Source: Candidatus Endomicrobiellum cryptotermitis (GTDB taxonomy: Bacteria; Elusimicrobiota; Endomicrobiia; Endomicrobiales; Endomicrobiaceae). From it: DNA of 56,259 bases. The position numbers and the translations under genes were made by a program. The notes under the pieces were generated by a model that was given only the letters and a program-made list of their open reading frames with translations, ran no database searches and had not been told where the DNA came from. Positions 3,786 to 49,609 of this stretch are shown here, piece after piece (position 1 is the first letter of the stretch; each line of letters begins with the position of its first letter). The stretch covers positions 1 through 56,259 of the forward strand of contig JAIRNY010000006.1 of NCBI GenBank assembly GCA_031257835.1, in the 5' to 3' direction.

Positions 3786-5321
3786 ATGCTCGTTACTGCA
3801 AGCAAAGTAAGTGGAACAATTTTTATGATAATTAAAAAAGACAAGAGTACTATACAAAATTATTTTCAAGACAATTCGGGTGTTTGTGGCGCACATGCTG
3901 ATTTTGTTGCTATAGCAGAGCATGAAAACGATATTCCTCCATTTTTAGTTGAAATGTCTAAAAATAAAATACCAACAACTATCGCTGGGGCGCTTACAGG
4001 AAACACGGCTTCGGGGTTAGCTTTTGGTGGGGCTGTATTATCTTTAGAAAAGCTAAATAATATAGGACAGATAAAAAAAGTTAGTGATAACATAGCCTTT
4101 ATTACTGTACAAGCTGGCGCACGTGTTAGTGATATAAAATTAGAAGCTTATAAAAGTGGCTGGATGTACCCTCCTGACCCTACAGAAAAAAGTGCTTTTA
4201 TAGGTGGCAATATTGCTACAAACTCTTCTGGTGCTAGAAGTTTTAAGTTTGGCTCAACAAGAGATTATGTGCAAGCTTTAAAAGTTGTTTTTGCAGATGG
4301 ATCAAAAAGTTTTATTGAAAGGGGTAAACTGTTTTCTGATAAAGAAGGAAACATAATGTTTGATACAGACCAAGGTATAAAACACATACAACTTCCTCAT
4401 TATAAGTTGCCTTATATTAAAAATGCTGCTGGATATTATAATTACCCTAATTCAGATTTAATAGATGTTTTTATAGGTTCAGAAGGAACTCTTTGTGTTA
4501 TTGTTGAAGCTGTTTTAAAGCTTCTTCCACATTTTAAAAATATTTTTGGAGGTATAATCTTTTTTGAGCGTCGCAACGATGCATACATGTTTGTGGAAAA
4601 AATAAAATCTATTTCTAAAAAAGCAAAAGAAGCAAAATTAAAAAATAGTGTTAATGCAATGTCTTTGGAATATTTTGATAAAAACGCTTTAAATCTTATT
4701 AGAGACGTTTACCCTATTATTCCTATACAAGCAGAATCTGGTGTAATGTTTGAGCAAGATGTTTACGATAATGATGTAGATTTGCTAATTGATAAATGGT
4801 ATGAAATTATACAGGAGTGTAGTGTGGATGTTGATAAAGTATGGTTTGCATCAAACTTAACAGAACTAGAAAAATTTAGAGCTTTTAGGCACTCAATTCC
4901 TGAACATGTTAATGCAATAATAAAAAAGAACAAAGTGCCTAAAGTAGGTACAGATTTTGCTGTTCCTGAAGGGAAGCTTTCCGATATAGTAAACTTTTGT
5001 GAAAAAGAATTTAAATCTTTGGGCGTTTTTAACTTAGCTTTTGGACATATCGGCCAAAATCATCTTCATGTAAATATTTTGCCTGCAAACAAGCAAGACT
5101 ACGAAAAATGTAGAAAGTCTTACATTGATATTGCTTGTAAAGTGGTAGAACTTAAAGGAACAGTCTCTGCCGAACATGGTATTGGCAAACTTAGGCACAT
5201 TTTTTTAGAGAAAATGCTTCAAAAAGGAGGAATTAAAGAAATGGCAAGATTTAAGAAAAGTCTTGATAATAATGCTATTTTAGGTCAAGATAATATATTC
5301 CCAAAGGAATATCTAATATAA
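3786..5321 (+). CDS. FAD-linked oxidase (GlcD / D-lactate dehydrogenase type)
   Basis: This is a flavoprotein of the FAD-binding-4 plus FAD-oxidase C-terminal family, which oxidises 2-hydroxy acids such as D-lactate or glycolate. FAD-binding motifs are visible: IPTTIAGALTGNTASGLAFG near residues 60-80, and FIGGNIATNSSGARSFKFGS near 138-157. The C-terminal domain carries FGHIGQNHLHVNILP and SAEHGIGK, the metal- and substrate-side motifs of the family. At 511 residues it is somewhat longer than typical GlcD. An internal ATG at 3825 (MIIKKDKST) is an alternative start, since neither start has a strong ribosome site. The substrate cannot be read from the sequence. The M16 peptidase gene follows after 19 bases. 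Confidence 0.85.
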   Translation: MLVTASKVSGTIFMIIKKDKSTIQNYFQDNSGVCGAHADFVAIAEHENDIPPFLVEMSKNKIPTTIAGALTGNTASGLAFGGAVLSLEKLNNIGQIKKVSDNIAFITVQAGARVSDIKLEAYKSGWMYPPDPTEKSAFIGGNIATNSSGARSFKFGSTRDYVQALKVVFADGSKSFIERGKLFSDKEGNIMFDTDQGIKHIQLPHYKLPYIKNAAGYYNYPNSDLIDVFIGSEGTLCVIVEAVLKLLPHFKNIFGGIIFFERRNDAYMFVEKIKSISKKAKEAKLKNSVNAMSLEYFDKNALNLIRDVYPIIPIQAESGVMFEQDVYDNDVDLLIDKWYEIIQECSVDVDKVWFASNLTELEKFRAFRHSIPEHVNAIIKKNKVPKVGTDFAVPEGKLSDIVNFCEKEFKSLGVFNLAFGHIGQNHLHVNILPANKQDYEKCRKSYIDIACKVVELKGTVSAEHGIGKLRHIFLEKMLQKGGIKEMARFKKSLDNNAILGQDNIFPKEYLI

Positions 5322-5340
5322 AAAAACATGTTAGCAAATT

Positions 5341-8217
5341 ATGAAAAAGTATGCTTTGTTTTTTGTGCTATTAGTTATTGCTATATTCACATTTTCTTGT
5401 TCTTGTGACAGTTCTTTAAAAAGGGAAGTTTATGCGGGTTTAGGTTCTCCGGATAGCCAAGTTCCGTTTTTAACAAAAGTTCGAAAAGGAGTTCTTCCTA
5501 ATGGTCTTACTTATTATGTTTTAAAAAATTCTAAGCCTGAAAATTATGCGATGTTAGCCCTGGTGGTAAATGCAGGCTCTGTTCTTGAAAAAGATGACCA
5601 GAGAGGGTTAGCTCATTTTGTAGAGCACATGGTTTTTGATGGCACAAAACATTTTCCTAAAAACGAAATTATAAACTACTTGCGTTCTCTTGGGATGCGT
5701 TTTGGGGCAGAAGTTAACGCATATACAAATTTTGACAATACAGTTTATTATATAGAAGTCCCTATTAAAACAGACGAGCGAAACGTTAAAGTTGTTCCAA
5801 ACAAAGCTTTAAATATCCTCAATGATTGGATGCAGTACGTTTTGTTTAATCAAAAAGATGTAGACAACGAAAAAAAAGTGATTCTTGAAGAAAAAAGACT
5901 TACAATGACTAATGCAGGTACAAGAATATGGCTGGATAGAGTATTGCCAATACTTTATAGAGGTTCTATTTATGCAGATAGATGGCCTATAGGGTTGCCT
6001 GAAGTTGTAAAAAATGTAACTGTCTGGCAGTTAAAAGATTTTTATAAAACGTGGTATCGTCCTGATAATATGTCTATTGTAATAGTTGGCGATTTTGATG
6101 ACGTGGTTTTAGAAAATTCTTTAAAATCTATTTTTAATATGCCCAAAGTTGACATGCCTTTAAACCATCCTAAATACGATTTACCTGGCCCTAAAAAGGG
6201 TAATCTGTATATAGAAATTTTAACAGATAATGAACAGACTTATTATGGAGCGTACTTTTATTATAAAAGAACTCCTAAAAAGTTAGAAAACAATTTATAT
6301 AATGTTAGAGAAGTATTTATTGATATGCTAGTTAACGAAATGACAAATATGCGTTTTAGCGATAAATCAAGAGAGTTAGACTGTCCATATATAAATGCTT
6401 TTGCTAGGTTTTATGGTGTGGGAGAATCTTCTAGGTTTTATTCATTCGAGTCAGTTGCAAAAGAAAACGGTTTGCAAGACACAATTAAAGCTGTTTTAGA
6501 AGAGAAGGAACGTATTTTGCAATATGGTTGGACACAAGAGGAAATAAATAGAGCAAAAACGTCACATATTGCTTATTTTGAGTCAAAAGTGTCTGAAAAA
6601 CGTATTGAATCTTCTTTGTATTTAAATAATTTTATTGGTAATTTTCTTGGGACAAGGCCTATAGTTGTAGATGATGAGTGGATATTTAACGCAGCAGTAA
6701 AAATGTTTCCTTTAATTACAGCTAAAGAATTAAACGCTGCATTTAAAGAGTACTTTAAAGATGACGACCTTACAGTGTTTGCCATTTGTCCAGAAACTGA
6801 AAATTTAATTTCAAAAGGAGAAATTGAGAAAATTATAAAAGATGTTAAAAATTCAAAAATTGTTCCGCCACTGAGTAATAATATTCAAGGTGATCTTGTA
6901 GACAACATTCCAAAACCGGGCGCTATTTTAAGACAGGTAAGTAAGAAAGAAACAGACACACTTGAGTTGGATCTAGAAAATGGTGCAAGAGTAATTTTAA
7001 AGCAAACAGCAAATAAAGATGATCAAATAGTTTTGTATGCGTTAGCTAAAGGTGGAATTTTTAATTGTGGTTACCCCTACAAAGATTTAGAGCAGTATAT
7101 AGTATCTGCTAGACTTTCTGCTCTGATGTGTATTAATTCTGGCCTTGGCAAATATTCTTATCAAGAAATTCGAAAAAAACTTTCTGATAAAAATGTAAAT
7201 TTTTATTTTGGAATAAGTAATTTTGATCGTTATTTTTTTTGTAACACTTCCGTAAAAGATACAAAAACCCTTTTTGAAGTTGTATATCTTTCATTTAGTC
7301 AACCTAAAATAGAGTCTGATGCTGTAAAATATGTGCTAGATCAATTTAAGACAGATTTGTTAAATGTCGACAAATCTCCAGAAAGAGTTCTCTCTAAAGA
7401 AATTGTCAAAGTTATATATGGAAATAATCCGTATTTTACACAAATTGAAATTTCTGATTTAGATAAAGTAAACGAATCTGTAGCTTTAGACTTTATAAAA
7501 AAATCTTTAAATCCTAAAGACTACACTTTTGTTTTTGCTGGAAACATTGATATTGAATTATTTAAAGAGTACATCAAAACTTACTTGGCTTCCATTAAAC
7601 AAGTTCCATCTTATGATATTGTAGAAAAAGAATTTGTACGTCCTAAACCTGAAAAAAAAGAAATAAATATGGGAAATGCTGACAAAAGTTCTGTAAGTTT
7701 AGGGTGGTATGTAAAATATGTAAAAGAGGACTACTCTCAAACATTAAGTGCACAAGCTAGGGTTTTTAATAAATATATGGATATAATTTTAATAGAACAT
7801 ATGCGCATGAAATTAGGACAGATATATTATATCGCTCCAGTTTGTTATACTGACTTGTACTTGAGAGAACTATCTATGGGAGGAAACTTTTCATGTGCAC
7901 CTAAAAAGGCTAAGAGTCTTATTAATATTGTAATTAGCGATATTAGAGATATCGCACGAGGAAATGTTGATAAAGATGTTCTTGTTAAGGCCAAAAAGGC
8001 TTGTAAAACTCAATGGGAAAAAAGTGTTCAAAACAATTTTGCTGTAGCCGAAGCTTATGCTTATATGTCAGTTTTTAACAAAACTAATTTTAGTGCATGG
8101 CCTTCTTTTTATGACGCAGTGACGTCTAGCGATTTAAAAAATATTGCAAAAAAACTTTTAAGTGTAGACTATTTTCAAGTTATTTTAAGTCCAGTAGAGG
8201 CAAAGTCTAAAAAGTAA
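5341..8217 (+). CDS. Secreted M16 family zinc peptidase, probable lipoprotein
   Basis: This 958-residue protein belongs to the pitrilysin/insulinase family, with two tandem M16 halves. Residues 1-20 form a hydrophobic signal ending FTFSC, which resembles a lipobox, so it is probably anchored in the envelope on the periplasmic side. The inverted zinc motif HFVEH is intact (His92, Glu95, His96), and Glu177 in DNEKKVILEE is the likely third ligand. The C-terminal half is the usual non-catalytic partner that helps enclose peptide substrates. The start is the ATG after the FAD-oxidase stop. The role is probably degradation of periplasmic peptides, inferred from the family. A composite repeat begins at the stop codon. 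Confidence 0.9.
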   Translation: MKKYALFFVLLVIAIFTFSCSCDSSLKREVYAGLGSPDSQVPFLTKVRKGVLPNGLTYYVLKNSKPENYAMLALVVNAGSVLEKDDQRGLAHFVEHMVFDGTKHFPKNEIINYLRSLGMRFGAEVNAYTNFDNTVYYIEVPIKTDERNVKVVPNKALNILNDWMQYVLFNQKDVDNEKKVILEEKRLTMTNAGTRIWLDRVLPILYRGSIYADRWPIGLPEVVKNVTVWQLKDFYKTWYRPDNMSIVIVGDFDDVVLENSLKSIFNMPKVDMPLNHPKYDLPGPKKGNLYIEILTDNEQTYYGAYFYYKRTPKKLENNLYNVREVFIDMLVNEMTNMRFSDKSRELDCPYINAFARFYGVGESSRFYSFESVAKENGLQDTIKAVLEEKERILQYGWTQEEINRAKTSHIAYFESKVSEKRIESSLYLNNFIGNFLGTRPIVVDDEWIFNAAVKMFPLITAKELNAAFKEYFKDDDLTVFAICPETENLISKGEIEKIIKDVKNSKIVPPLSNNIQGDLVDNIPKPGAILRQVSKKETDTLELDLENGARVILKQTANKDDQIVLYALAKGGIFNCGYPYKDLEQYIVSARLSALMCINSGLGKYSYQEIRKKLSDKNVNFYFGISNFDRYFFCNTSVKDTKTLFEVVYLSFSQPKIESDAVKYVLDQFKTDLLNVDKSPERVLSKEIVKVIYGNNPYFTQIEISDLDKVNESVALDFIKKSLNPKDYTFVFAGNIDIELFKEYIKTYLASIKQVPSYDIVEKEFVRPKPEKKEINMGNADKSSVSLGWYVKYVKEDYSQTLSAQARVFNKYMDIILIEHMRMKLGQIYYIAPVCYTDLYLRELSMGGNFSCAPKKAKSLINIVISDIRDIARGNVDKDVLVKAKKACKTQWEKSVQNNFAVAEAYAYMSVFNKTNFSAWPSFYDAVTSSDLKNIAKKLLSVDYFQVILSPVEAKSKK

Positions 8218-45181: not shown

Positions 45182-45349
45182 ATGGAAAAGATGAAATGCA
45201 CTGTTTGTGGGTATATTTATGATCCGAATCTAGGCGTTGACGATAGTATTATAACTAAAGGGACATCTTTTGAGCAGTTACCTCAAGACTGGGTGTGTCC
45301 TGTATGTGGGGCCCCAAAAGATGCTTTTGAAGTAGAGAAACAGGCTTAA
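45182..45349 (+). CDS. Rubredoxin
   Basis: The 55 residues carry the two iron-binding loops CTVCGYIYD and CPVCGAPKD of a one-iron rubredoxin, and the typical [10 protein letters not shown]. It shuttles electrons at low potential, and here is the natural partner of the flavodiiron protein, superoxide reductase and rubrerythrin encoded downstream. The ATG at 45182 is preferred to a TTG at 45161 because GGGAAG lies just before it. It is followed by the desulfurase-like gene after three bases. Confidence 0.96.
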
Positions 45350-45352
45350 GCT

Positions 45353-46609
45353 ATGAAGCCTATATATTTGGACAATCAGTCTAATACGAAGTTAGATAAT
45401 AATGTGTTTAATGCAATGATGCCTTTTTTTGTTGATTGTTATGGCAATCCTCAAAGTATTTATTCTTTAGGTACTATTTCTAAAGATGCTCTAGATATCG
45501 CAAGGTTTCAAGTTGCAAGTTTTATAAATGCAGACGCTAAAGAAATAACTTTTACTTCTTGTGCTACAGAGTCAAACAATTTAGTAGTTAAAGGTATAGT
45601 AGAATCGTTAAAGACTAAAGGTAAACATATTATTGTTTCTTCTATAGAACACTTTTCCATCTTAAACCCTTTAAAAAAACTACAAAATGAGGGTTTTGAA
45701 ATTACTTATTTGCCTGTGGATACAAAAGGAAACGTAAGTGCTAAAGAACTTGAAAAGTCTTTAAGAAAGGAAACTATTTTAGTGTCTATCCAACATTCTA
45801 ACCCTGAGATTGGAACTATACAAAATATTAAAGAATTAGTAGCTATAGTTAAGAATAACAAAATCAACGATTTTGTTGTTTTTCATACAGACGCTGTAAG
45901 TTCTTGCGGTTTTGTACCTGTAGATGTTAAAAACTTAAATGTAGATGCTTTGACGTTTTCTTCGTCTGTAATGTATGGTCCAAAAGGCGCTGCTGCTCTT
46001 TATGTTAAAAAAGGTATAAAAATAATTCCTCAAATTGAAGGTGGTGTTCAAGAAAATTCTAAACGGTCAGGCACAGAAAATATACCTGCCATAGTGGGTT
46101 TTGGTAAAGCTTGCCAAATTGCTAAAACAGAGCTTATTTCAAATGCACAAAAAATAAAAGAGTTAAGAGACATCCTTGTCAGAGAACTACCAAAAAGAAT
46201 AGAATATATCTATTTAAACGGTGCAGCAGAAAATCGTTTGCCTGGCAATGTAAATTTCTCAATTGAGTTTGTTGAGGGTGAATCTTTGTTTTTGCTTTTA
46301 GATGCTAAAGGGATAATGGCTGCAAGTGGTTCTGCTTGCGCAAATAAGAGCCTAAAACTTTCTCATGTGTTAAGTGCGATAAACGTAGATGTAGCTGTTG
46401 GGCAAGGGTCTATAGTTTTTACATTATCAAAATACAATACAAAAGAAGAAATTGACTTTGTTTTAGAAGAGTTTCCTAAAATAGTTAACAGGCTTAGAGA
46501 AATGTCACCCCTGTACTCGTATTTTTTAGAGACAGGCAAAAGAAAACAGGCTGGTCCTGGAACAAGTTTTGCTCACGACCATGACCATTGCCACATATGC
46601 GAAGAATGA
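45353..46609 (+). CDS. Cysteine-desulfurase-like protein (NifS/IscS family) lacking the PLP lysine
   Basis: The 418 residues align with NifS/IscS along the whole length (YLDNQSNTK, FTSCATESNN, SSIEHFSIL, KRSGTEN, ASGSACANKS). These enzymes use PLP to take sulfur from cysteine for Fe-S clusters. The catalytic cysteine is present (Cys329 in GSAC). However, the segment that normally reads S-x-H-K-x-Y-G-P-K-G reads SSSVMYGPKG, so the PLP Schiff-base lysine is Val206 and the histidine before it is Ser205. The usual DA-x-Q-S is DAVSS (Gln to Ser183), and NNEIG is NPEIG. The C-terminus ends HDHDHCHICEE, a likely metal site. The frame has no stops and normal codons, so it is an expressed divergent protein, probably without classical activity. 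iscU follows. Confidence 0.85.
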   Translation: MKPIYLDNQSNTKLDNNVFNAMMPFFVDCYGNPQSIYSLGTISKDALDIARFQVASFINADAKEITFTSCATESNNLVVKGIVESLKTKGKHIIVSSIEHFSILNPLKKLQNEGFEITYLPVDTKGNVSAKELEKSLRKETILVSIQHSNPEIGTIQNIKELVAIVKNNKINDFVVFHTDAVSSCGFVPVDVKNLNVDALTFSSSVMYGPKGAAALYVKKGIKIIPQIEGGVQENSKRSGTENIPAIVGFGKACQIAKTELISNAQKIKELRDILVRELPKRIEYIYLNGAAENRLPGNVNFSIEFVEGESLFLLLDAKGIMAASGSACANKSLKLSHVLSAINVDVAVGQGSIVFTLSKYNTKEEIDFVLEEFPKIVNRLREMSPLYSYFLETGKRKQAGPGTSFAHDHDHCHICEE

Positions 46610-46688: not shown

Positions 46689-47075
46689 ATGGCATTTTAT
46701 TCAGAAAAAGTTATGGATCATTTTGCAAATCCAAGAAATGTTGGACAAATAGAGAATGCAGATGGCGTAGGCGAGGTAGGGAATCCTGTGTGTGGCGATA
46801 TGATGACTTTTTACATAAAAGTTAAAGATGATAAGATAGAGGACGTAAAATTTAAAACTTTTGGGTGTGGAGCAGCTATAGCCGTTTCTTCAATGGTTTC
46901 AGAAATGGCTAAAGGTAAAAGTGTAGAAGAGGTTATGAATATTACAAATGATGATGTTGCAAAAGAGCTTGGAGGATTGCCTCCAAACAAAATGCATTGT
47001 TCTAATCTTGGAGCAGACGCATTACATAAAGCTGTAGAAAATTATAAATCAAAACAGGGTAAAAAGTATGTGTAA
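46689..47075 (+). CDS. iscU: Fe-S cluster assembly scaffold IscU/NifU N-terminal type
   Basis: IscU builds [2Fe-2S] and [4Fe-4S] clusters from sulfur delivered by a desulfurase. The 128 residues have the three ligand cysteines: NPVCGD (about 36), FGCGAAIA (about 62) and MHCSNLG (about 105). The assembly region GGLPPNKMHCS replaces LPPVK-type motifs and lacks the second cysteine typical of SufU. GGAGG precedes the ATG by about ten bases. It overlaps the next small gene by eight bases. Its usual sulfur donor would be the gene upstream, which lacks its PLP lysine. Confidence 0.94.
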   Translation: MAFYSEKVMDHFANPRNVGQIENADGVGEVGNPVCGDMMTFYIKVKDDKIEDVKFKTFGCGAAIAVSSMVSEMAKGKSVEEVMNITNDDVAKELGGLPPNKMHCSNLGADALHKAVENYKSKQGKKYV

Positions 47076-47265
47076 AGATAATTGTTCTTGTCCGTATTGC
47101 CAAACTGAGCTAAAAAACAGATGTTTAAATCCAGAATTTTGTGAGCCTTGCTGTAAAACTGAAAATGTCCATATAAAAATATGTGGTGTTTGTAAATCAG
47201 AATATTCTAACGAATATGAAAAATGTCCGATGTGTCAAGCAGAACCAGGTGTTAAGATGGTCTAA
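47068..47265 (+). CDS. Small 12-cysteine metal-binding-like protein
   Basis: The 65-residue protein has 12 cysteines (2, 6, 8, 11, 19, 25, 28, 29, 39, 42, 53, 56). The C-terminal half CGVC...CPMC is a zinc-ribbon or rubredoxin-like pair; the N-terminal half (CSCPYC, CEPCC) is a denser cluster. It starts inside the iscU end (eight-base overlap), so translation is coupled. I do not recognise a named family. Carrying a metal or Fe-S cluster, or sulfur, for the IscU system is a reasonable guess from position and cysteine content, but nothing more. Confidence 0.7.
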   Translation: MCKDNCSCPYCQTELKNRCLNPEFCEPCCKTENVHIKICGVCKSEYSNEYEKCPMCQAEPGVKMV

Positions 47266-47297: not shown

Positions 47298-48485
47298 ATG
47301 ATGACAAAATTAATAAAAGAAGGTATATATTCGGTTGGTGTAGTAGATTGGAATGAAAGGCGTTTCCATGGGCACACATATGTGACTAAAAGAGGTGTTA
47401 CATATAACTCTTATTTAGTTATAGATGAAAAGATAACGTTGATTGATACTGTTAGAGAAGGGTTTCAAAAAGAGTTAATAGAGAATATCAAAAATGTTGT
47501 TGATCCTTCAAAGATAGACGTTATAATAATAAATCATATAGAACCAGACCATTCTGGCGCATTTGCAGAAATATTAAAAATTTGTCCTAATGCTAAGGTT
47601 TACGGTACAGAAAAAGCAAGACAAGGTCTTTTAAAATATTATGGAGTATGTGGAGACTGGGTTGGAGTAAAATCAGGTCAAAACTTAAATATAGGAAAAA
47701 GAACGTTAGATTTTATAGATGTACCCATGATACATTGGCCTGATAGTATGTTTACGTACTCAGCTTATGATAAGATTTTATTTTCAAATGACGGGTTTGG
47801 GCAACATTACGCGACTAACAAAATTTTTGACGATGAAGTTAATTTTGATGTTTTAATGGACGAAGCTCAAAAATATTATGCAAATATACTTTGGCCATTT
47901 AATATGCTTGTCTCCTCAAAACTTGCAGCAATAGACAAATTGAGTCTAGATGTTGAGCTTATAGCTCCCAGTCATGGACTCATATGGCGTAAATATATAT
48001 CAGAAATTATGCAAAAATATTTGTATTGGTCTTCACATTCGTGCAAGAATAGGGTTGCAGTTGTATATGAAACGATGTGGAACTCTACAGAGAAGATGGC
48101 AAGAAAGATTGTAGAAGGAATAACTTCAGAAGGTGTGGAAACTATATTATTTGATGTGACAAAAAATGATAGGCCAGACATTGCTTCATATATGTTAGAG
48201 GCTAAAGGGTGGGTGTTTGGTTCATCTACTCATGACGGGGAAATGTTGCCTGTAATTGCGGGCTTCTTACACTTTCTTAAAGGATCTAAAGCTAAAGGAC
48301 GTAAATCTTTTGCGTTTGGTTCTTATGGGTGGAGTGGGGAGGCTGTAAAAGATATTGAAGATACAATTTCTAATGTTACATCTTTTGAACCTTCTTTAAG
48401 AGTGGTCTATAATCCTACTCAGGAAGAGCTGGATAAATGTTTCCAAGCAGGTAAATCTTTTGCTTTAAAAATAAAAAATGAATAA
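47298..48485 (+). CDS. fprA: Flavodiiron protein (FprA type, rubredoxin-oxygen/NO oxidoreductase)
   Basis: This enzyme reduces O2 to water (and often NO) with electrons from rubredoxin. The 395 residues have an N-terminal beta-lactamase-like domain with the diiron motif NHIEPDHSG (His80, Glu82, Asp84, His85), IHWPDSMF (His146), SNDGFGQH (Asp165) and APSHGLIW. A flavodoxin domain follows (VVYETMWNSTEKMARKI, FGSSTHDGEM, FGSYGWSGEAV). All diiron ligands are present. The start is the first ATG at 47298 or the next at 47301. Rubredoxin is encoded 2 kb upstream in the same run. Confidence 0.96.
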   Translation: MMTKLIKEGIYSVGVVDWNERRFHGHTYVTKRGVTYNSYLVIDEKITLIDTVREGFQKELIENIKNVVDPSKIDVIIINHIEPDHSGAFAEILKICPNAKVYGTEKARQGLLKYYGVCGDWVGVKSGQNLNIGKRTLDFIDVPMIHWPDSMFTYSAYDKILFSNDGFGQHYATNKIFDDEVNFDVLMDEAQKYYANILWPFNMLVSSKLAAIDKLSLDVELIAPSHGLIWRKYISEIMQKYLYWSSHSCKNRVAVVYETMWNSTEKMARKIVEGITSEGVETILFDVTKNDRPDIASYMLEAKGWVFGSSTHDGEMLPVIAGFLHFLKGSKAKGRKSFAFGSYGWSGEAVKDIEDTISNVTSFEPSLRVVYNPTQEELDKCFQAGKSFALKIKNE

Positions 48486-48543: not shown

Positions 48544-48987
48544 ATGAAAGGACTAGTTTGTAAAGTTTGTGGTTACGTAGCTTTAGACGGCAACAAAGAG
48601 ATATGCCCTATTTGTCATGCAAAAAATGTATTTGAGGAAAGACAGGACGCTTATAAAATGCCTGACTTTAAGGCAACCTCAGGAGAGACTGAAAAAAAGC
48701 ATATTCCTAATTTTACAGTTGTAGAAAAGTGTGGTTTAATTCCTGGGGCTGGTTGTGTTGATATCCATGTAAAAGTTGGGGAGGTGTTACATTCTGCTTT
48801 GCCTGAACATCATATACAGGAAATAACTTTTTATCTTGACAATAAATTTGTCTCAAACGTTATACTCACGTCTAGCATTAACCCAGCTGCAGTTATCCAT
48901 TTAAAAGGTGGGACAAAAGGGGAAGTTCAAGTTATAGAAACATGCAATCTTCATGGTAAATGGTTTAATGCGATAGAAATAAAATAA
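48544..48987 (+). CDS. dfx: Superoxide reductase (desulfoferrodoxin-like)
   Basis: This enzyme reduces superoxide to peroxide without making oxygen. The 147 residues have an N-terminal domain with CKVC and CPIC (Cys6, 9, 21, 24), a zinc-ribbon or rubredoxin-like iron site rather than the classical desulforedoxin pattern. The catalytic domain keeps the centre II ligands His53 (KHIPN), His83 and His89 (HSALPEHHI), and Cys134 and His137 (CNLHG). AAGGAGGG precedes the ATG. It is placed between the flavodiiron protein and rubrerythrin, which together dispose of O2, superoxide and peroxide. Confidence 0.94.
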   Translation: MKGLVCKVCGYVALDGNKEICPICHAKNVFEERQDAYKMPDFKATSGETEKKHIPNFTVVEKCGLIPGAGCVDIHVKVGEVLHSALPEHHIQEITFYLDNKFVSNVILTSSINPAAVIHLKGGTKGEVQVIETCNLHGKWFNAIEIK

Positions 48988-49030
48988 CATTGTATAAGGA
49001 CTTGATTATAATATGGAGGTAGTAAAGGTT

Positions 49031-49609
49031 ATGTCAAAATCAGTTAAAGGTACAAAGACCGAAAAACATTTATTAGAATCATTTGCAGGAGAATCACAAG
49101 CAAGGATGAGGTATACATACTTTGCTTCAAAAGCAAAAAAAGAAGGTTTTGAACAAATTGCTGCAATTTTTACAGAAACAGCAGACAACGAAAAAGAGCA
49201 TGCAGAAAGATTTTTTAAATTTTTAGAAGGTGGCCCACTTGAAATTACTGGAACTTTTCCAGCGGGCATTATTAGCAATACAGTTGAAAATTTAAGGCTT
49301 GCAGCTTCTGGAGAAAACAAAGAACATACAAAACTTTATCCTGATGCGGCCAAAGTTGCTGACGAAGAAGGATTCCTTGAAATTGCAGAATGTTTTAGAA
49401 GAATTTCTGTTGCTGAGAAGCATCATGAGGTAAGGTACTTAGAACTTCTTGACAATCTTGAAAACGATAGAGTGTTTAAAAAAGATATGCCTATAAAATG
49501 GAAATGTCGTAACTGTGGTTATGTTTACGAAAGCAAAGAGGCTTTAGAAAAATGTCCAGCATGCTTGCATCCTAAAGCATATATGGAAGAATTGGCTGAT
49601 AATTTTTAG
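49031..49609 (+). CDS. rbr: Rubrerythrin
   Basis: Rubrerythrin reduces hydrogen peroxide to water with electrons from rubredoxin. From the ATG at 49031 it has 192 residues; GGAGG lies 11 bases upstream, so I do not use the ATG at 49013. Diiron ligands: Glu21 in GESQAR, Glu54 and His57 in NEKEH, Glu94 in SGENKEH, and Glu129 with His132 in VAEKHHE. The C-terminal rubredoxin domain has CRNCGYVYE and CPACLHPKA. A long perfect palindrome follows the stop and may end the transcript. Confidence 0.97.
   Translation: MSKSVKGTKTEKHLLESFAGESQARMRYTYFASKAKKEGFEQIAAIFTETADNEKEHAERFFKFLEGGPLEITGTFPAGIISNTVENLRLAASGENKEHTKLYPDAAKVADEEGFLEIAECFRRISVAEKHHEVRYLELLDNLENDRVFKKDMPIKWKCRNCGYVYESKEALEKCPACLHPKAYMEELADNF

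Follow-up and report, generated by a model that had tools for sequence, protein, structure and literature searches.

Here, we report that NifS*, a NifS/IscS paralogue from a termite-gut symbiont of the phylum Elusimicrobiota, lacks the PLP lysine and is maintained in this form by strong purifying selection. The explanation that best fits our analysis, to which we assign a probability of about 0.6, is that NifS* is a dead desulfurase that would act as a docking partner for IscU and as a cysteine ligand, with sulfur fed either as sulfide or by another NifS.

The window, i.e., the whole 56,259-nucleotide stretch of DNA that was analyzed, is contig C2 of a 1.05-Mb assembly in 28 contigs, which is 87% complete. 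NifS* is encoded on its + strand (45353..46609) by an uninterrupted ORF that is open across 418 codons, as the initial annotation had recognized, and AlphaFold and profile searches assign the 418-aa product to the class V aminotransferase fold. Alignment to E. coli IscS bears out what was first said of its active site: the PLP lysine is replaced by valine (K206 to V206; codon GTA, 45968-45970), the preceding histidine by serine (H205 to S205), and Gln183 by serine (Q183 to S183), while the catalytic Cys in GSAC (C328 to C329; 46337..46339, +) and the active-site His (H104 to H100) are retained. The altered PLP-lysine motif DALTFSSSVMYGPKG (residues 198-212) is present as described, but ORF translation and alignment place it at 45944..45988 (+), the original position of 45941-45985 being one codon early. 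Two losses add to those already named, N155 (P151 in NifS*) and R354, which binds the substrate carboxylate (V355). Asp180, Ser203, Thr76 (Thr72 in NifS*), and Thr243 (in RSGT) are also kept, and much of the PLP pocket is retained (His100, Asp180, Ser203, Thr72, and Thr241), including phosphate-binding residues, so that NifS* may still have some cofactor role. Cys329 lies on a flexible loop, and Lys332 and Lys335 downstream of it are gains when compared to canonical NifS.

In E. coli IscS, His104, Asp180, Gln183, Lys206, and Cys328 are each indispensable for activity, Arg354 binds the substrate carboxylate, and the K206A and Q183E mutants have zero desulfurase activity, although inactive K206A still holds some PLP (PMC9978102). 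Loss of the lysine does away with the internal aldimine, but cofactor binding need not go with it. Since several catalytic residues are gone, the catalytic machinery of NifS* is deficient beyond the lysine alone. NifS* has the fold and the flexible GSAC Cys loop of a cysteine desulfurase, but it has Val206, Ser183, and Val355 in place of K206, Gln183, and Arg354 and, judged by these residues, it fails the defining features of such an enzyme. It also scores below the NCBIfam cut-offs for the NifS equivalog (TIGR03402, 464.1 vs. 530.75 bits) and for IscS (TIGR02006, 383.3 vs. 643.2; PRK14012, 401.7 vs. 548).

The AlphaFold model of NifS* (alignment A1) has a mean pLDDT of 88 and a pTM of 0.87 and is uncertain in the C-terminal tail and over residues 328-334, which form the Cys loop. 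Foldseek searches with this model return IscS/NFS1 structures, with the highest identity (45%) to Archaeoglobus fulgidus IscS (AfIscS; TM 0.96, target-normalized; rmsd 1.7). Ranked by sequence score instead, the closest chain of known structure is that of the lysine-bearing cysteine desulfurase PDB 9wep. Variants of the latter (PDB 9wer, 9wew, 9wfe, 9wf8, 9wfb, and 9wfy) are altered at pocket positions that are naturally lost in lysine-less proteins, 9wfy for example carrying Asn to Arg, Gln to Pro, Lys to Leu, and Arg to Val changes.

NifS* lies in a gene cluster, all on the + strand, between a rubredoxin gene directly upstream (45182..45349) and a gene for an IscU/NifU-type Fe-S scaffold (46689..47075). 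This IscU, which is MisU-like and matches TIGR03419, has its three Cys and Asp39 intact and is the sole NifU_N match in the genome. Its end is overlapped by the gene for a small Cys-rich Zn-ribbon-like protein (47068..47265), followed by genes for a flavodiiron protein (oxygen/NO reductase; 47298..48485), a desulfoferrodoxin-like superoxide reductase (48544..48987), and a rubrerythrin (49013..49609). The order rubredoxin, NifS*, IscU, Cys-rich ORF, flavodiiron protein, desulfoferrodoxin, and rubrerythrin is found in the genus; in the wider phylum it is NifS*, IscU, and Cys-rich ORF, often with desulfoferrodoxin. The 65-aa Cys-rich protein has two knuckles, is without a match in Pfam or NCBIfam, and recurs next to NifS*-IscU at about 40 loci; it is a candidate new accessory factor for Fe-S assembly.

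Linkage to IscU distinguishes NifS* from its lysine-bearing paralogue. A same-strand IscU gene within 700 bp was found at 43/51 NifS* loci vs. 6/31 lysine-bearing loci in Elusimicrobiota, with NifS* lying apart from IscU in a few genomes, and all 44 NifS*-linked IscU copies have C37, D39, C63, and C106. NifU_N is present in 60/60 genomes, usually as one true copy, a SUF core in 1/60, and A-type carriers in 0/60. Alternative routes via SUF, an A-type carrier, rhodanese, or TusA were rejected for the window genome, none of them being found in this 87%-complete assembly. Within the limits of the assembly, NifS*-IscU is therefore the only system for Fe-S scaffolding, no other having been detected.

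How a dead desulfurase might serve IscU is suggested by an archaeal precedent. Passages in PMC7585200 and PMC9769115 describe AfIscS as having Asp in place of the Lys and as inactive as a desulfurase, and they report that a [2Fe-2S] cluster is held by three IscU Cys and one IscS Cys when the two proteins are in complex. AfIscS (PDB 4eb5, 4hvk, and 4r5f) shares with NifS* the absence of K206, Q183, and Arg354, the presence of the loop Cys, of Asp180, and of a Lys at Cys+3, and the partnership with IscU. It differs from the Elusimicrobiota form by its Asp (SSND vs. Val/Gln in SSSV and SGSQ), and it keeps Asn155, which NifS* does not. Descent of NifS* and AfIscS from one lysine-less ancestor was not supported; since they fall in separate clades, their losses look independent. 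NifS* thus probably works like AfIscS while standing outside that lysine-less clade, and the mechanism is transferred by analogy because AfIscS belongs to a separate lysine-less lineage. According to this mechanism, NifS* would have abandoned PLP chemistry on cysteine for good, and its homodimer would be a platform on which IscU docks. Cys329, on its mobile loop, would provide a temporary ligand or a sulfur-carrying thiol, with a [2Fe-2S] cluster meanwhile being built on the three IscU cysteines. The sulfur would come from outside NifS*, either as free sulfide in the anoxic gut or from a separate lysine-bearing NifS. We propose docking and ligation by Cys329 because of the analogy with AfIscS combined with conservation: the two proteins have lost and kept the same combination of residues, both pair with IscU, and their loops are comparable.

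Other known systems resemble this one in part. Methanosarcina acetivorans IscS1 is likewise reported to be without the catalytic Lys and to adjoin its own iscU (PMC7585200), but its host also encodes SUF proteins and two more iscSU pairs, whereas no scaffold pair other than NifS*-IscU was found here. The canonical proteins E. coli IscS (1p3w), human NFS1, and PDB 9wep share with NifS* the fold, Cys loop, His104, Asp180, and IscU partnership, but canonical NifS/IscS have the Schiff-base Lys, Gln183, His205, Asn155, and Arg354, all five of which are missing in NifS*. The minimal iron-sulfur system MIS (MisS-MisU) is, like NifS*-IscU, a two-gene S/U pair with neither carriers nor SUF, and the IscU studied here matches TIGR03419. 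However, MIS is described as including a cysteine desulfurase (PMC12192291), and NifS* is without the residues for such activity, which an unlinked lysine-bearing NifS could supply.

Such a protein is encoded in the window genome, apart from NifS* (G000:C4:12671-13771, locus L001), which upholds one half of a suggestion in the initial annotation, that another desulfurase exists elsewhere. Compared with close relatives, this lysine-bearing NifS has a dN/dS of 0.43-0.55, indicating faster protein evolution than for the lysine-less copy. A lysine-bearing NifS is found in every Elusimicrobiota genome with NifS* that is at least 90% complete, and given this the whole system may still draw sulfur from cysteine. 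The gene for MnmA, the tRNA 2-thiouridylase, lies within 3 kb of 7/31 lysine-bearing copies vs. 1/51 NifS* copies. We infer a division of labor in which the lysine-bearing NifS would serve tRNA thiolation, and perhaps as a sulfur source, and NifS* would partner the scaffold. The main rival to our preferred reading gives the two paralogues a closer bond: NifS* would be a persulfide relay, from lysine-bearing NifS via Cys329 to IscU, or the partner in a mixed dimer with one catalytic site. The presence of a lysine-bearing NifS in all the near-complete NifS* genomes argues for this, as do the invariance of Cys329, the failure to find, in the window genome, a rhodanese or TusA that could act as the relay instead, and one locus that groups NifS*, IscU, and lysine-bearing NifS (L080 of genome G054). 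But in nearly all genomes the genes for the two paralogues lie apart, and in the 0.2-Mb genome G022 (66% complete), which has NifS* and IscU, a lysine-bearing NifS was not found. Moreover, a lysine-less protein is the single homologue detected in several archaeal or other genomes of unstated completeness (G060, G065, G069, G079, G080, and G092). We therefore consider a relay or mixed dimer unlikely, albeit the strongest of the alternatives. At L080 (about 4204-7254, - strand), the three genes are adjacent, which is the sole such case seen and makes this cluster a good system for questions about sulfur relay or mixed dimers.

Conservation was assessed in a set of 60 relatives, all of which have NifS/IscS homologues. 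Lys is absent from the site in 52/52 Elusimicrobiota orthologues that cover it, drawn from the genus of the window as well as from further orders and classes, with Val in most of the genus and Gln in most others. Lys is present in 56/56 canonical control homologues, a set defined by that very column, and these controls have H205 (56/56), R354 (56/56), and Q183 (96%). In alignment A1, which holds 45 of the orthologues, the invariant positions include Cys329, His100, Asp180, Arg238, and the GTEN segment. Pairwise dN/dS between close relatives is 0.10-0.19 for the lysine-less gene vs. 0.22-0.55 for the lysine-bearing paralogue of the same species. NifS* has survived genome reduction to 0.2-0.6 Mb (G022, G018, G029, G032, and G035) and is absent from four near-complete genomes (G038, G056, G058, and G059), which have the lysine-bearing form only.

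These data bear on the remaining alternatives. It is improbable that NifS* keeps a PLP/PMP reaction without an internal aldimine, using another residue as base. It is true that NifS* retains His100, Asp180, Ser203, and the residues that bind phosphate and that E. coli K206A holds some PLP, but that mutant is inactive (PMC9978102), and Gln183, Asn155, His205, and Arg354 are lost as well. A substitute Schiff-base lysine, for which the initial annotation had left room, was rejected since none of the alignment columns holds Lys in all 52 orthologues, Lys211 of GPKG being R, V, Q, or L in some.

Pseudoenzyme regulators have typically lost catalysis and retained fold and linkage. NifS* follows this pattern, and its operon contains oxygen-defense genes, both of which would suit a regulator or chaperone of IscU (a competitive decoy or holdase) standing outside cluster chemistry. 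We rate this about as improbable as residual PLP chemistry: a mere decoy would need neither the catalytic Cys and loop that NifS* has retained nor the newly gained basic residues that flank them.

A recent loss of function, a pseudogene, or a sequencing error, for which the missing residues alone and an in-frame TAG in the relative G016 might speak, is very improbable and was rejected because 52/52 orthologues across the phylum are without Lys, dN/dS is lower than for the canonical paralogue, and NifS* persists in reduced genomes. The other half of the suggestion mentioned above, that the loss was recent, thus falls, as does the idea that corrected sequence would restore His-Lys. In the G016 orthologue (locus L057 2978-4234, - strand), the TAG may reflect a decaying gene or an assembly error. 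The other role originally envisaged, a non-PLP sulfur or scaffold function beside IscU, is supported by the phylum-wide lack of Lys, purifying selection, the kept Cys, the IscU operon, and the AfIscS precedent. Our search of the literature available to us found no earlier report of a lysine-less IscS in Elusimicrobiota or Endomicrobium.

We wondered how widespread lysine-less homologues might be. Genome contigs were scanned with a degenerate pattern barring a lysine codon (non-AAR by design), which measures breadth and not frequency. At least 117 stretches matched and encode NifS/IscS homologues without Lys, many beside IscU; one match, L188, is interrupted at the lysine position by an in-frame stop. 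We tabulated 91 full-length proteins, which derive from archaea (Bathyarchaeota, Methanobacteriota/Halobacteriota, Thermoplasmatota, and Asgard lineages) and from Nitrospirota, Rokuibacteriota, Actinomycetota, Thermodesulfobacteriota, and others. Three replacement types were seen: 1) SSND, the AfIscS type, mostly in archaea, 2) S-x-x-Q/V/E in Elusimicrobiota, Nitrospirota, and kin, and 3) S/T-x-H-L in Rokuibacteriota and some archaea. Trees were built with four of the trait columns removed. In these, E. coli IscS has the Rokuibacteriota type as its sister (100/99), the AfIscS type falls among archaeal proteins that bear the lysine, and the Elusimicrobiota-Nitrospirota type is recovered as a group (support 100/99) that includes or adjoins the lysine-bearing PDB 9wep. 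The trees give no support to one ancient clade uniting the lysine-less proteins with AfIscS: 0/200 bootstrap trees show one origin of the lysine-less proteins, and an AU test of the AfIscS and Elusimicrobiota types as one clade gave p = 0.027, a moderate value, for groups that were chosen after a first tree had been seen. Supported branches force at least three changes of lysine state. Since trees count changes and not their direction, regain of the lysine is formally possible, but it is chemically unlikely.

The AfIscS and Elusimicrobiota types have both lost Gln183 and Arg354, and about 96% of the proteins in each have Lys/Arg at Cys+3, where 70% of lysine-bearing proteins have Gly. The H-L type, which keeps Gln183 and Arg354, may work differently. 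Rokuibacteriota IscS with His-Leu for His-Lys were found at nine loci (L119, L126, L150, L179, L182, L190, L205, L208, and L233), most of which adjoin IscU, and this form represents a separate loss of the lysine near E. coli IscS.

Textbooks present IscS as the enzyme that feeds sulfur to IscU. That a bacterial phylum pairs its only detected scaffold with a presumably dead IscS, which evolved independently of the archaeal one, points to a role of IscS-IscU beyond making persulfide. Our observation is more significant than one odd gene. We tentatively propose, at less than even odds, that desulfurase-free scaffold assembly evolved repeatedly, with the IscS partner of IscU having lost its PLP lysine in at least three lineages, the two main ones having also lost Gln183 and the substrate Arg and gained a basic residue beside the Cys. 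The outcome would be a sulfide-fed cysteine-ligand platform, serving as the sole scaffold system in most Elusimicrobiota. The annotation of such genes as cysteine desulfurases is probably wrong in many anaerobe genomes. These findings make it testable whether IscU needs a protein partner rather than the chemistry of that partner and, if our proposal is true, sulfide-fed assembly, which has been proposed for archaea and early life, may operate in bacteria.
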